Source: a virus
IMG/VR virus record: IMGVR_UViG_3300046777_000307
Span: 1 to 37,107 of that record
Strand: one strand, 5' to 3'
DNA: 37,107 nucleotides
Position 1 is the first letter of the stretch. Every line of letters starts with the position of its first letter. The notes below the pieces were generated by a model that ran no database searches, was not told the origin of the DNA, and was given only the letters and a program-made list of their open reading frames with translations. This document shows positions 16,920 to 35,805 of this stretch, in pieces. Both the position numbers and the translations under genes were made by a program.

Positions 16920-17080
16920 GCATTCAAGGACACTTAGCTGGAATCATTGAGGCTAACCGTATTAGCGGTGTAACAAGCTATGGCGGCTATCAGTATCGAG
17001 ATGTGCCGGACAATAGACCGAATCCATTATTTGAAAAGATGAAGGAAGAAGCCAAGAATGCTAACGAAGCCAAGAAGTAA
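16916..17080 (+). CDS. Hypothetical protein before primase-helicase
   Basis: 54 residues with a Gly/Tyr-rich centre (TSYGGYQYRDVPDNRPNPLF) and a Lys/Glu C-terminal helix. It overlaps the primase-helicase start by 23 bases, which implies coupled translation. Not recognised. Confidence 0.6.
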   Translation: MSIQGHLAGIIEANRISGVTSYGGYQYRDVPDNRPNPLFEKMKEEAKNANEAKK

Positions 17081-18656
17081 ATTCATTAAGCATATCGCCT
17101 GTGATCGATGCGGTTCGTCCGATGGAAACTCACTCTATGACGATGGACACACCTATTGCCATGTATGCGAAACCTATGTAGATGATGCGGGTGATGTCTC
17201 TACTAAACGAGAAACCAAACCAATGAACAAGGACTTAGAATTCTATGACAATGCTACTGCTAGTGCTATCAGTGATCGTAATATTCATTCGCCTGTTTGC
17301 CTGAAATACGGTGTCAAGCAAGATCCGAATAAGCATTACTATCCTTACTTTGACAATGATGGAGTATTGACGGCGGTTAAGACTCGATTGGTGTCAAGCA
17401 AGTCATTCTCGATTGCCGGAGACTTTAGCAATACGATGCTATTCGGGCAACAATGCTTTCCTAAAGGTGGTCGCTATTTGACGATCTGTGAAGGCGAACT
17501 CGATGCGATGTCAGCATTCCAGATGATGGGTGCGAAGTATCCTGTCGTATCGATCCGTAACGGCGCATCGGCAGCTCTCAAGGACTGCAAGGCGCAGTAT
17601 GAATATATTGACAGTTTCGAGAATATCGTATTGTGTTTTGATTCTGACGAAGCCGGACAGAAGGCTAGTCAGTCCATCGCTGAGTTGTTCGGCGGCAAAG
17701 TTAAGATGATGAAGATGCGAACCGGACTCAAGGATGCCTCTGATTATCTTAAACTCAAAGCCGACAAAGAGTTCTTGGATGACTGGTGGAGGGCTGAGAA
17801 CTATGTGCCTGATGGCATCATTCAAGGCGCTACGCTTTGGGAAGTTGTATCGAAGCCGATTGACAAGGCTGAATGCGATTATCCGTATGAGGCGCTAAAC
17901 AAGCTCACCTATGGCATTCGTAAAGGAGAACTCGTTATGATCACCGCCGGATCGGGACTAGGTAAGTCGCAGTTCTTGCGTGAAATCGTATGGCATATTG
18001 TCAATAAAACTGAAGACAATATCGGCATGATGTTCTTGGAAGAAGGAGTTCGTAAGACGGCTAGGTCGCTGATGTCGTTAGCGGCGAACAAGCCTATTCA
18101 TTTACCTGATATAGAAGTTACTGAAGAGGAGTTAAAAGATGCCTTTGATCGAACACTTGGTACTAACCGCCTTTATCTTTTTGATCATTTTGGAAGTAGC
18201 ACTCTTGACAACATTGTTAATCGTGTCCGTTATATGGCTAAAGGATTGGGATGTGGCTATGTATTCTTGGATCATATTAGTATTATTGTCAGCGGCGGTG
18301 ATGTGGGCGATGAACGAAAAGCTCTTGACGCTATTATGACAAGGCTACGGATGCTGGTTCAGGAAACAGGAATCAGTCTCATTTGCGTATCGCACTTAAA
18401 GCGTCCGGAAAGCAAAGGACACGAGGAAGGCGCAGTAACATCATTGGCTCAGTTGCGAGGCTCAGGCTCGATTGCCCAGCTATCGGACATCGTGATCGGA
18501 CTAGAGCGTAACGGTCAAGCGTTAGATCCTGTTGAGAGAAACACTACTCATGTTAGGGTTTTAAAGAATCGCTTTAGTGGCTACACTGGCGGTGCTGGTG
18601 AATTGCTTTACAATCCATCAACCGGAAGAATGTTAGAAATTAAGGACAGTATATGA
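17058..18656 (+). CDS. T7 gp4-like DNA primase-helicase
   Basis: 532 residues (T7 gp4 is 566). The zinc-binding domain CDRC...CHVC (15-18 and 34-37) has the same spacing as T7. The TOPRIM primase domain shows ICEGELDAMSAF and LCFDSDEAG. The RecA-like helicase has Walker A AGSGLGKS near residue 299, Walker B GYVFLDHISII, and the C-terminal RVLKNRFSGYTG. It unwinds the fork and lays primers for the polymerase gene downstream. Met56 just after the zinc domain could start a short form like T7 gp4B, but has no clear ribosome site. The stop overlaps the next gene by ATGA. Confidence 0.95.
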   Translation: MLTKPRSKFIKHIACDRCGSSDGNSLYDDGHTYCHVCETYVDDAGDVSTKRETKPMNKDLEFYDNATASAISDRNIHSPVCLKYGVKQDPNKHYYPYFDNDGVLTAVKTRLVSSKSFSIAGDFSNTMLFGQQCFPKGGRYLTICEGELDAMSAFQMMGAKYPVVSIRNGASAALKDCKAQYEYIDSFENIVLCFDSDEAGQKASQSIAELFGGKVKMMKMRTGLKDASDYLKLKADKEFLDDWWRAENYVPDGIIQGATLWEVVSKPIDKAECDYPYEALNKLTYGIRKGELVMITAGSGLGKSQFLREIVWHIVNKTEDNIGMMFLEEGVRKTARSLMSLAANKPIHLPDIEVTEEELKDAFDRTLGTNRLYLFDHFGSSTLDNIVNRVRYMAKGLGCGYVFLDHISIIVSGGDVGDERKALDAIMTRLRMLVQETGISLICVSHLKRPESKGHEEGAVTSLAQLRGSGSIAQLSDIVIGLERNGQALDPVERNTTHVRVLKNRFSGYTGGAGELLYNPSTGRMLEIKDSI

Positions 18657-18976
18657 ATGACGATTTATTATCAAAAGCCCTGAAGTATGCTAAGAACGAT
18701 GACTATCATGTTACACGCAAGATCATCACCGATTTGTGTAATGAGATTGAGCGTCTTCGTGAGCTAAATAAAGATGTGTTTAGCAGGATTCAGGATAATA
18801 AAGAAATGTTTAATAACGCTGAACGCTATCTTTGGTTACGGAACTCAGCATGGGATGTGCCGCCAAATGCCTATGCACCGATTGTCGTGCTTAGCGATAA
18901 CAAGATGACTACTTGGGAATGGCTTGACGGCACTGCGCTTGATTTAACAATTGACAAATGGCGTAACGATGCTTAG
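18653..18976 (+). CDS. Conserved phage protein, 107 residues
   Basis: The N-terminal 55 residues are helical; then comes ERYLWLRNSAWDVPPNAYAPIVV...TWEWLDGTALDLTIDKW. The RYLWLRN...LDG-ALD-AID pattern recurs in small proteins of many proteobacterial phages, with no known function. It is coupled to the primase-helicase by ATGA. Confidence 0.72.
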   Translation: MNDDLLSKALKYAKNDDYHVTRKIITDLCNEIERLRELNKDVFSRIQDNKEMFNNAERYLWLRNSAWDVPPNAYAPIVVLSDNKMTTWEWLDGTALDLTIDKWRNDA

Positions 18977-19202
18977 TTTAAAGTGGATTGCAACCTATCT
19001 TTGCCTAGCCGGTATTGCCTTGACCAGCTACAATATCTACCCGATGAACATTGTTCTAAGTGCTATTGGGAGTGCGATGTGGGCTTGGGCAGGATGGAAG
19101 CAGCGAGATAATCCACTATTGATTGTTGAAGCCGTAGCAGTTTTCTTTTATGTATCTGGACTTATTACATGGATGACACAACACAGAGAGTATTTAAGTT
19201 AG
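18969..19202 (+). CDS. Small three-helix membrane protein
   Basis: 77 residues from ATG 18969 (a TTG at 18951 is possible). Three hydrophobic segments, about 5-24, 27-45 and 50-70, with SYNIYPMNI and WAGWKQRDNP loops. The pattern recalls small PnuC-like or DUF6552-type membrane proteins, but I am not sure of the family. It lies between replication genes, which is unusual for a membrane protein. Confidence 0.6.
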   Translation: MLSLKWIATYLCLAGIALTSYNIYPMNIVLSAIGSAMWAWAGWKQRDNPLLIVEAVAVFFYVSGLITWMTQHREYLS

Positions 19203-19507
19203 CACAGGAGTGTATTGAGGAACTGAAGAAGAAAGTCGAATACATACAGTTATTAGAACAATATATTGAGGAGTTAGAAAGTGGTGTGGAAGTGTCCGCC
19301 GTTAAACCTGTTCAATTGGAACAACCTTTGGAAATGGAGAAATCAGATGACAACATGGACGACAGAAGACCGAGTGCAGTGCGTCGAAGAAATGCAAAAG
19401 GAGATCAAGGATCTTCAGGATCGACTGATTCAATCAGAGACGAATTTGACAATAGCGATGGCGGAGATACAGGCACTACGGCATCAACTGATAACCTTGA
19501 CAAATAG
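19169..19507 (+). CDS. Coiled-coil protein with low-complexity overlapped tail
   Basis: 112 residues. Residues 8-40 form a strong coiled coil (AQECIEELKKKVEYIQLLEQ onward). From about residue 60 the sequence turns to Asp, Ser, Gly and Arg low complexity, exactly where a second gene starts in the +1 frame (19347). The tail may be an unselected by-product of the other gene, or this may be the zero-frame part of a frameshift pair. It overlaps the membrane protein gene by 34 bases. Confidence 0.6.
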   Translation: MDDTTQRVFKLAQECIEELKKKVEYIQLLEQYIEELESGVEVSAVKPVQLEQPLEMEKSDDNMDDRRPSAVRRRNAKGDQGSSGSTDSIRDEFDNSDGGDTGTTASTDNLDK

Positions 19508-19517
19508 CCAACATTAG
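19347..19517 (+). CDS. Coiled-coil protein nested in the +1 frame
   Basis: 56 residues from ATG 19347 (TGGAG about eight bases before). It begins MTTWTTEDRVQCVEEM and continues as a regular coiled coil (KEIKDLQDRLIQSETNLTIAM). All but the last ten bases lie within the preceding gene in another frame. An in-frame ATG at 19281 gives an unlikely Trp-rich extension. The regular heptads make this the better-supported reading of the segment. Confidence 0.6.
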   Translation: MTTWTTEDRVQCVEEMQKEIKDLQDRLIQSETNLTIAMAEIQALRHQLITLTNSQH

Positions 19518-19525
19518 TATACAGT
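19497..19525 (+). promoter_or_regulatory. Sigma70-type promoter for DNA polymerase
   Basis: TTGACA (19497-19502), a 17-bp spacer, TACAGT (19520-19525). The -35 box ends a coding frame (its TAG lies three bases on). The start site is predicted at about 19531-19533, that is, on the polymerase ATG itself, which has no ribosome site. Confidence 0.7.
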
Positions 19526-19531
19526 CATTAT

Positions 19532-21190
19532 ATGCGCTTATTATTGGACATCGAAACCACATTAGATCATAGCAAGATTTGGTGCGTTGTTACTAAGAAT
19601 TTAGACACAAACGAGGTGCGAGTATGGAAAGAAGCAAAAGACTTGTCGGAGTATATAAAGGCAGCGAATTTGATAGTGGCTCACAATGGGATCGCATTCG
19701 ATTTCTACTTGCTGAACAAGTTATGGCAATGTCAGATTACATTGAAGAAAGTCGAAGATACATTAGTTCTAAGCCGATTACTAAATCCAAGCCTAGAAGG
19801 TGGACACAGCTTGGCGAATTTAGGAAATATATTAGGGATTAATAAATCTGAGTTCACCGATTTTGATTTAGCTGAGCAGTCACTAGACGACATGATCGCC
19901 TATTGCGTTCAGGATGTGGAAGTGTTGCATAGGATTTATAATTATTTAAAGAGTGAATTAAAGCGTCAGGAGTTTTCATTAACATCACAGGAGTTAGAAC
20001 ATGAAATACAAGCAATCATCGCAGTTCAAGAACGAAACGGTTTCAAATTCGATGAATCGTCTGCTATGCGATTACTGGCTGAACTTAAAACTAAGCTGGA
20101 TGCTATTACGGTTGAAATGCAAAGGATTTTTCCTCCCAAGATCACTTCTGGTCGCACCCACAAAACAACCGGAAAAGCCCTCAAAGACATCGTCGAAGAG
20201 TTCAACCCCGGTAGCCGCAAGCAAATCGCAGAAAGGCTCATCGAAAAAGGCTGGAAGCCGGAAAAGTTCACCGAGAAAGGCAGCGTCATCGTCGACGAAA
20301 CCACGCTCGAAGGACTCGACTTCCCCGAAGCGAAAGCAATCGCCGAATACTTGATGCTGCAAAAGCGTATTGCACAGATCGAAAGCTGGATGGATGCAAT
20401 GCAGTCTGACGGTCGTGTGCATGGCAAAGTAATCACGAATGGCGCAGTAACAGGACGCATGACGCACCACAGCCCCAACATGGCACAAGTCCCTAATGCC
20501 AGTGCGGTTTATGGTCCTGACTGCCGTAATCTTTGGATAGTTGAGAAAGGATGTAAGTTAGTTGGCATCGATGCAAGCGGTTTAGAGCTTCGTATGCTGG
20601 CACACTACATGAATGATAATGAATATACGAATGAAGTTGTGGAAGGCGATATACACACAGCCAACCAAAAAGCAGCGGGATTGGAAACGAGGAACCAAGC
20701 TAAGACTTTTATCTACGCCTTTCTCTATGGCGCAGGAGCTGCCAAGATCGGGAAGATTGTTGGAGGCTCACCGAAAGAAGGACAAAAGCTCATTGATAAT
20801 TTTCTGCGAAACACACCGAAACTTCAAAGACTCAGAGATCGTGTTTCTAAAGCGGTGGCTTCGAGGGGATGCCTTCAAGGTATCGACGGACGCAAGCTAC
20901 TCATTCGCTCGGAGCATTCGGCGCTCAACACGCTACTGCAGGGCGCAGGTGCGATAGTAATGAAGAAAGCGTTGGTTTTATTACACAAAGACTTGACAAA
21001 ACGGAAAATACCGTTTAAATTCGTAGCTAATGTTCACGATGAGTGGCAGTTAGAAGTTCCTGAGCAGTATGCAGATGAAGTTGGTCAATCAGGTGTTCGT
21101 GCAATTACGAATGCAGGATTGGAATTTAAAATGAACTGTCCCTTAACGGGCGAATACAAGGTAGGTAATACATGGAAAGAGACACACTAG
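19532..21190 (+). CDS. DNA polymerase A, compact T7 gp5-like, with 3'-5' exonuclease
   Basis: 552 residues against 704 in T7. Exonuclease: DIE (Asp6, Glu8), HNGIAFD (Asp57), YCVQD (Asp128). Polymerase: GRMTHHSPNMAQVPN, motif A GIDASGLELR (Asp347), motif B RNQAKTFIYAFLYGAG (Lys391, Tyr395), motif C VHDE (Asp503, Glu504). Tyr395 matches T7 Tyr526, the residue that admits dideoxynucleotides. Length and spacing leave little room for the T7 thioredoxin-binding loop. ATG 19532 has no Shine-Dalgarno sequence; a promoter places the transcript start on it. Bases about 20110-20500 are markedly GC-rich. It replicates the phage genome with the primase-helicase. Confidence 0.95.
   Translation: MRLLLDIETTLDHSKIWCVVTKNLDTNEVRVWKEAKDLSEYIKAANLIVAHNGIAFDFYLLNKLWQCQITLKKVEDTLVLSRLLNPSLEGGHSLANLGNILGINKSEFTDFDLAEQSLDDMIAYCVQDVEVLHRIYNYLKSELKRQEFSLTSQELEHEIQAIIAVQERNGFKFDESSAMRLLAELKTKLDAITVEMQRIFPPKITSGRTHKTTGKALKDIVEEFNPGSRKQIAERLIEKGWKPEKFTEKGSVIVDETTLEGLDFPEAKAIAEYLMLQKRIAQIESWMDAMQSDGRVHGKVITNGAVTGRMTHHSPNMAQVPNASAVYGPDCRNLWIVEKGCKLVGIDASGLELRMLAHYMNDNEYTNEVVEGDIHTANQKAAGLETRNQAKTFIYAFLYGAGAAKIGKIVGGSPKEGQKLIDNFLRNTPKLQRLRDRVSKAVASRGCLQGIDGRKLLIRSEHSALNTLLQGAGAIVMKKALVLLHKDLTKRKIPFKFVANVHDEWQLEVPEQYADEVGQSGVRAITNAGLEFKMNCPLTGEYKVGNTWKETH
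20993..21021 (+). promoter_or_regulatory. Possible internal promoter before SSB-like gene
   Basis: TTGACA (20993-20998), a 17-bp spacer, TAAATT (21016-21021), inside the polymerase gene. The spacer contains the dyad AACGG-AAAATA-CCGTT (21000-21015). It could raise output of the SSB-like protein 400 bases downstream. As it lies in coding DNA it may be chance. Confidence 0.3.
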
Positions 21191-24377: not shown

Positions 24378-24634
24378 AAGACTATATAGACCGCATAAAC
24401 GACTCTGTAAGCCCCGATCGTAAGCAGGTTGGAGGGGACCATTACCAAGTGGCAGAAATCCAGCCTTGGGACATTATGATGGCTTACGGGCTAGATCCTT
24501 GGAGTGCCAATGTGATTAAGTACACACTTCGCTTTCCGTACAAGAGTGGCGTACAAGATCTTGAAAAGGCTAAACATTATATAGAATTTCTTATTACGAA
24601 CTATGAAGCTATTGACAAAAAGTACTATTCATGA
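24368..24634 (+). CDS. DUF3310 protein, T7 gp1.7-type nucleotide kinase
   Basis: 88 residues from ATG 24368 (GAGGTGA upstream). It contains KQVGGDHYQ, IQPWDIMMAYGLD, NVIKYTLRFPYKSG and DLEKAKHYIEF, the full signature of DUF3310. T7 gp1.7, a nucleoside-monophosphate kinase, belongs to this group as I recall. Placed just before the ribonucleotide reductase, a role in making dNTPs is reasonable. Confidence 0.85.
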   Translation: MQLKDYIDRINDSVSPDRKQVGGDHYQVAEIQPWDIMMAYGLDPWSANVIKYTLRFPYKSGVQDLEKAKHYIEFLITNYEAIDKKYYS

Positions 24635-24640
24635 TACAGT
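24612..24640 (+). promoter_or_regulatory. Sigma70-type promoter for reductase module
   Basis: TTGACA (24612-24617), a 17-bp spacer, TACAGT (24635-24640) with TGA before it (extended -10). Same -35, spacer length and -10 as the polymerase promoter. The start site near 24647 leaves only about six bases before ATG 24653. Confidence 0.6.
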
Positions 24641-24652
24641 TGAAGGTTCCCC

Positions 24653-24808
24653 ATGGCGTTAACATTGAATGACATCAAAGATCGATTAAAGCAAATCGAT
24701 GAGATTGACTTACTCGAATTACTTGAAATAAACTCTGAAGACATCGTGGAGAGATTTACAGATTTAATTGAAGATAATTTTGATAAACTGGAGAAAGAAG
24801 TCGAATGA
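24653..24808 (+). CDS. Conserved small acidic protein
   Basis: 51 residues: ALTLNDIKDRLKQIDEIDLLELLEI and a second helix IVERFTDLIEDNF with an acidic end. This DI--RL--ID---LLE-L-I...IV-RF-D-IE pattern is frequent in phage replication regions, without known role. GAAGG precedes the ATG, and ATGA couples it to the reductase. Confidence 0.7.
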   Translation: MALTLNDIKDRLKQIDEIDLLELLEINSEDIVERFTDLIEDNFDKLEKEVE

Positions 24809-35114: not shown

Positions 35115-35771
35115 TTAGACCCAGTTCCACTGAGATTCTTCAATATAACGATTCGATTCTAACGAGATTGCATCAGCAAGACTCTGACGATATAACGCAT
35201 AAGTCTCACCGGACTGTACACCGCCGTCTTCGCCACGCTCTGCTTGCGCTCTAGCCAATGCACCTAAGATGACAGGCTCATGAGGGACTAGCAGAATATC
35301 AGCGTTAGCGACTAACGGCTCTTGTGGTTTAATCACATTGAAGCGAATATTGTAAGCACCGTTAGGAATAGGGAACAAGTCTACCTGTGTATCACCGTTA
35401 CTATCTGTACCGTTAAAGTTATAATACTTAGGACTGCCCTTCTGAGGTGTAGTCAACAGAAACTGCTGATCCATCCAGATAGTTGAGACATTCTCAATAA
35501 AGAAGTTATCGGTATCGTTCAAGACATCGATAACACGAAAGCGCTGTCCTGAGCCAACTAAGACATAGTTAAATACATCAGCCGTAGTTGTAGCCGACAA
35601 GGTCTCTGACAATGAATTCCAGTTGTAAGCATCTTCTACTTGGCGCTTAGAGTCATTGACATACTTAGAAATGAGCTTAACATAAGCGGTATCCGAGACG
35701 GAAGAAGCCTCCGGCTCACGAAGGCGTACTAACACATCATTGACGAGTTGGATATAATTATACGAAGCCAT
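35115..35771 (-). CDS. Tail adaptor, T7 gp11-like (tail tubular protein A)
   Basis: 218 residues: YNYIQLVNDVLVRLREPEAS, YVNDSKRQVEDAYNWNSL, then beta-rich middle and a helical C-terminus (LGALARAQAERGEDGG...). This matches the gp11-type head-tail adaptor of T7-like phages, which sits between portal and nozzle. A sigma70-type promoter lies directly upstream; its predicted start falls on this ATG, while an AGGA ribosome site lies inside the -10 box. So it may be read both from long transcripts and as a leaderless one. Confidence 0.88.
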   Translation of the reverse strand: MASYNYIQLVNDVLVRLREPEASSVSDTAYVKLISKYVNDSKRQVEDAYNWNSLSETLSATTTADVFNYVLVGSGQRFRVIDVLNDTDNFFIENVSTIWMDQQFLLTTPQKGSPKYYNFNGTDSNGDTQVDLFPIPNGAYNIRFNVIKPQEPLVANADILLVPHEPVILGALARAQAERGEDGGVQSGETYALYRQSLADAISLESNRYIEESQWNWV

Positions 35772-35776
35772 GCGTT

Positions 35777-35805
35777 ATCCTATCATAAATTGACTATTTT
35801 GTCAA
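35777..35805 (-). promoter_or_regulatory. Sigma70-type promoter for tail genes
   Basis: Minus strand: TTGACA (35805-35800), a 17-bp spacer ending TTATGA (extended -10 TG), TAGGAT (35782-35777). Only five bases separate the -10 box from ATG 35771. Shares CTTGACAAA with the promoters at 6796 and 11195. Confidence 0.8.

Follow-up and report, generated by a model that had tools for sequence, protein, structure and literature searches.

A putative leaderless mRNA for a replicative DNA polymerase, with a host-type promoter held six nucleotides from the start codon, in a group of uncultured phages

The sequences analyzed here are best explained by a host sigma70-type promoter directing an mRNA that begins at the A of the AUG of a phage replicative DNA polymerase, which would then be translated without a leader; we regard this explanation as highly probable, and a leaderless polymerase mRNA as well supported by sequence. 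The DNA under study is a stretch of 37,107 nt (hereafter, the window) of the IMG/VR virus record IMGVR_UViG_3300046777_000307, in which the polymerase gene occupies positions 19532 to 21190 on the plus strand. Its 552-aa product has the two features by which family A membership was judged, a polymerase A domain (PF00476, E = 1.9e-55) and an N-terminal 3'-5' exonuclease (PF01612, E = 5.6e-7), and matches phrog_17 (E = 5.4e-151). The protein begins MRLLLDIE, with the catalytic DxE of the exonuclease starting at residue 6, and its frame is closed upstream by a TAG at 19505-19507, with no alternative ATG, GTG, or TTG start in between; the ATG at 19532-19534 was therefore accepted as correct.

The preliminary description of this DNA had placed a TACAGT box ending 6 nt in front of this ATG, and the complete promoter was found on the plus strand of the window, with TTGACA as its -35 box. 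The -35 box lies at 19497-19502, the -10 box at 19520-19525 after a 17-nt spacer, and the 6-nt stretch, here CATTAT, at 19526-19531. Judged from this geometry only, transcription is predicted to start at A19532, 7 nt past the -10 box and the first letter of the start codon; the alternative, A19530, would give a 2-nt leader. The same description had noted the absence of a Shine-Dalgarno (SD) sequence, in contrast to nearly all neighboring genes. Indeed, the anti-SD pairing before the polymerase ATG, at +0.6 kcal/mol, is the weakest in the window, where the median over 65 gene starts is -6.0 and nearly all other genes keep SD sites. The final codons of a small coiled-coil-like ORF of 56 aa (19347-19517, plus strand) contain the -35 box; this ORF stops 14 nt short of the polymerase ATG and has no family match in Pfam-type and phrog profile searches. 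An overlapping plus-strand ORF of 112 aa in another frame (19169-19507) stops 24 nt before the ATG. Farther upstream on the same strand are genes for a DUF6552 protein (18951-19202; PF20189, E = 9.7e-9) and a primase/helicase (17058-18656; phrog_239, E = 2.6e-186).

Promoter statistics confined to the window proved uninformative: it contains 48 promoter-like sites scoring at least 9/12, compared to 46.2 in shuffled sequences, which is not above chance, and the polymerase promoter is one of its six best sites (at least 10/12). Since the match in the window is indistinguishable from chance, we compared relatives. Six IMG/VR scans with different polymerases yielded ~290 loci, in which start codons were picked from the DIE motif, blind to promoters. 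Scores came from a simple sigma70 weight matrix combining the -10 box, the -35 box (at 16 to 18 nt), and the TGn element, read 5 to 7 nt before the start; its frequencies reflect general knowledge of E. coli promoters, and the sigma70 consensus is assumed and may not be that of the host. The first 80 loci were inspected by eye before the score was fixed, and only the held-out set described below is free of that influence.

At a score threshold of 6.9, with the -10 box ending 5 to 7 nt before the ATG, the promoter was present in 101 of 281 relatives, at exactly 6 nt in 94 of them. Its frequency followed polymerase similarity: when the polymerase was at least 75% identical to that of the window, the -10 box lay exactly 6 nt before the ATG in 31/31 loci, while a promoter at 5 to 7 nt was found in 55/103 loci at 60 to 75% identity, 15/107 at 55 to 60%, and 0/40 below 55%. 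Other ORF starts in these loci, 766 in both sets together, included none of this type. The promoter-to-ATG distance, which the preliminary description had proposed to follow in related phages, is thus conserved. That description also held that relatives retaining the polymerase ATG without the promoter would count against a leaderless mRNA; such loci are absent at 75% identity and above, but they do occur outside that group, where the promoter is often replaced by an SD sequence, a stop/start overlap, or a promoter with a leader.

Among the 56 distinct upstream contexts of the first set, 14 scored at least 7 at 5 to 7 nt, ten of them at exactly 6 nt; in the same loci, this score was reached by none of 549 ATGs at other ORF starts and by 0.56% of 8,624 ATGs. 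Sites scoring at least 8 were found in 13 contexts at 6 and 7 nt, and none were found 10 to 29 nt before the ATG (53 contexts). When contexts were defined strictly, 13 of 61 were of the leaderless type versus 0.34 expected from Markov resampling, which gave a maximum of 2 in 300 rounds. A held-out set, fetched later and restricted to contexts unlike those of the first set, contained 3 positives in 25, all at 6 nt and all among the seven new contexts whose polymerase was at least 60% identical; its controls gave 0/217 ORF starts and 24/3,828 ATGs. All 15 leaderless-type contexts of the first set start with ATG. SD strength also differed between leaderless-type and other contexts (P = 0.0002), a difference that is partly built in and is not our main evidence because the -10 box occupies the SD region.

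Three main promoter types were distinguished among the leaderless-type loci. The window type (8 loci) reads TTGACA-17-TA[CT]AGT; its -35 box is unchanged in all eight, its -10 box is TATAGT in L301 and L302, and the following 6 nt are constant in length and variable in letters, with four different discriminators (CATTAT, TTAATC, TTCTAT, and TTATAT). The FkbM-gene type (27 loci) is mostly TTGACA-18-TAAGAT, and the TG(n)TATAAT type (32 loci) has 17 discriminators, 6 nt long in 29 loci and 7 nt long in 3. The feature that is kept is the spacing rather than the sequence. In the FkbM context, the boxes fall inside codons (FVD...VR-stop), and protein constraint explains part of the conservation of this type. 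At least eight different upstream genes precede the leaderless-type promoter, including unrelated genes encoding an FkbM methyltransferase, a DUF6552-like protein, a primase/helicase, small membrane proteins, and several unknowns. A primase/helicase stands directly before the promoter in L102 and L132, and a DUF6552-like protein, its similarity judged by eye, directly precedes the polymerase in L019 and L025.

The replacement of upstream DNA was assessed in pairs of loci in which the first 600 nt of the polymerase gene are at least 80% identical and the upstream sequences are unrelated. Both members carried a leaderless-type promoter in 158 of 245 such pairs, which are not independent of one another. 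In L306 and L308, the first 600 nt of the gene are 99% identical, and in L217 and L218, 98%; upstream DNA is unrelated within each pair, where a promoter of the FkbM type is set against a non-homologous one of the window type, in that order, and both lie at 6 nt. L048 and L122 share 97% identity over the 36 nt before the ATG, beyond which identity is only 36% and 29%. Near-twins can also differ in start type. L028 has an AAGGA SD sequence, while its near-twin L024 has a promoter with the -10 box 5 nt before the ATG. A group of 24 loci (L119, L127, L043, and relatives), near-twins of leaderless-type loci, has an upstream ORF overlapping the polymerase gene by 17 nt and, at a distance of 32 nt upstream, a promoter-like TGATAAAAT, a leadered alternative. 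In a further group of 14 loci, that of L274, 9 nt separate the end of a -10-like TAAAAT from the polymerase ATG; the resulting leader would be 2 to 4 nt long, and this geometry is a possible intermediate. On a polymerase tree of 75 rows, the trait must have changed 12 times or more, and well supported branches force 10 of these changes. We lean toward the view that leaderless initiation has been directly selected for the replicative polymerase in a phage group without an RNA polymerase of its own, upstream cassettes being exchanged up to the ATG and non-homologous DNA repeatedly bringing, or re-evolving, a host promoter at exactly 6 nt.

Conservation, tight position, and repetition in the held-out set argue that the promoter match is not due to chance. 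A fortuitous match in AT-rich DNA, or one forced by upstream codons, would fit the window counts, in which promoter-like sites are as numerous as in shuffles, and the overlap of the FkbM-type boxes with codons; indeed, a -10 box arising as a by-product of upstream codons is possible for that type, but not for the other types as a group. Against this stand the excess of strict contexts over expectation, the narrow position, the held-out replication, the non-homologous replacements, and the presence of the boxes in all seven window-type relatives of the window. Chance is largely refuted for the group, and we find this explanation hardly credible.

Explanations that accept the promoter and dispute its consequence deserve more weight. 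The promoter could serve mainly the downstream replication genes, with the polymerase translated by coupling from a longer polycistronic mRNA. The upstream genes are co-directional and close, separated by a 14-nt gap in the window and joined to the polymerase by an ATGA stop/start overlap in L009, L019, L084, and L101, and the downstream genes have good SD sites; yet nothing would fix a promoter meant for downstream genes at precisely 6 nt before the polymerase ATG across contexts that are unrelated. We consider this quite improbable as the main explanation; in the several contexts with an ATGA overlap, coupled translation from longer mRNAs may contribute to polymerase synthesis as well. It is rather unlikely, in our estimation, that transcripts carry an ultra-short leader of 2 to 4 nt, so that initiation is neither truly leaderless nor SD led. 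A19530 is a possible start site, and both the 14-locus group and the 5- to 11-nt geometry of a tail gene (see below) would suit such a leader, but the common spacing of 6 places the preferred seventh base on the A of the ATG, mostly after T or C.

Leaderless geometry is not widespread in these genomes. In a scan covering the window and ten relatives (~694 genes), this geometry turned up at the polymerase of 9 genomes out of 11, at one tail gene in four genomes, and at three other ORFs; one of these three, a 155-aa ORF of G005, has a likelier start at an SD-led ATG lying a few codons further on. In the window, only the polymerase and the tail gene scored. The tail gene (35115-35771, minus strand) has a near-leaderless promoter within 35771-35805, with TTGACA at 35805-35800, 17 nt, and TAGGAT at 35782-35777, 5 nt before the ATG. 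The same boxes are present in most of the close relatives among 80 loci, and the spacing is 5 to 6 nt in close relatives and 9 to 11 nt or more in distant ones. Its -10 box overlaps AGGA, and the gene may also be SD led. Two other promoter-like sites in the window were recorded. On the plus strand, the box pair of the polymerase promoter, TTGACA-17-TACAGT, recurs with a TG before the -10 box (24612-24640) upstream of a small gene (24653-24808), itself followed by a class II ribonucleotide reductase; the predicted leader is only ~6 nt. On the minus strand, TTGACA-17-TATAGT with a preceding TG (11195-11167), the best promoter-like site of the scanned region, points to the leftward terminase and structural genes, with a leader of ~160 nt.

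Neither the window nor any of ten near-complete relatives, in records that may be incomplete, yielded a single-subunit RNA polymerase (PF00940); the same search detected it in 3/3 isolates, HTVC109P, CRP-804, and LUZ100. Since no T7-type RNA polymerase was found, the polymerase gene is presumably transcribed by that of the host. These three isolates are similar to the window phage in their family A polymerase (43 to 45% identity) and its neighbors but differ in encoding a T7-type RNA polymerase and in lacking such a promoter at the polymerase start, where CRP-804 has an SD sequence and HTVC109P a stop/start overlap. None of the five isolates examined could serve as an example of the same start. 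A search of GTDB genomes for the host found no relative above 48% identity, and capsid, terminase, and ribonucleotide reductase pointed to different hosts.

On the leaderless reading that we prefer, host RNA polymerase, recruited to a sigma70-type promoter ending 6 nt before the ATG, would start at, or within 2 nt of, its A, and the 5'-AUG would be translated presumably via the 70S/initiator-tRNA/IF2 route. Downstream genes on the same mRNA would use their own SD sites. Such an arrangement could allow the polymerase to be expressed whatever gene stands upstream, and would probably keep its level modest. The low-level expression route raised in the preliminary description is plausible by analogy with Rhodobacter sphaeroides acuR, a leaderless message translated at a low level (PMC3017554), whereas nothing in the present analysis lends support to the stress-resistant route raised alongside it. 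Along with lambda cI, made from PRM, and Tn1721 tetR, acuR is one of the single leaderless messages known; all have +1 on the A of the AUG, lack an SD sequence, and sit beside SD-led genes, as is predicted here, but they encode regulators, whereas the gene in the window encodes a replicative polymerase amid a co-directional gene run. As published by Zheng et al. 2011 (PMC3160421), leaderless genes in bacteria are marked by a TANNNT signal ~12 bp ahead of the start. The window polymerase shares the features of this TA-led class, with a -10-like TANNNT box (TACAGT at -12 to -7), no SD sequence, and an ATG start; in contrast to TA-led genes, which are numerous in each host genome, only one or two genes per phage have the arrangement here, and it is kept through replacement of the upstream gene. 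In the Thermus phage phiYS40, which produces leaderless messages, IF2 goes up and IF3 goes down (PMC3594737); of such a wider program we saw no sign in the window, where most genes have SD sites.

In the open-access literature, we found no report of a conserved leaderless gene for a replicative or phage DNA polymerase. Outside a few bacterial phyla, leaderless mRNAs are usually viewed as rare exceptions, often encoding regulators. In the present case, what appears to rely on such a message is a core enzyme of replication, in uncultured phages that form a widespread group, and the start type varies among close relatives whose polymerases are almost identical. Pairs such as L306/L308, L024/L028, and L048/L127 allow the effect of a leaderless start on expression level, timing, and independence from neighboring genes to be asked. 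If true, these findings would represent a conserved leaderless gene for a replicative polymerase and a natural experiment in which nearly identical proteins switch between starts that are leaderless, leadered, or SD led.
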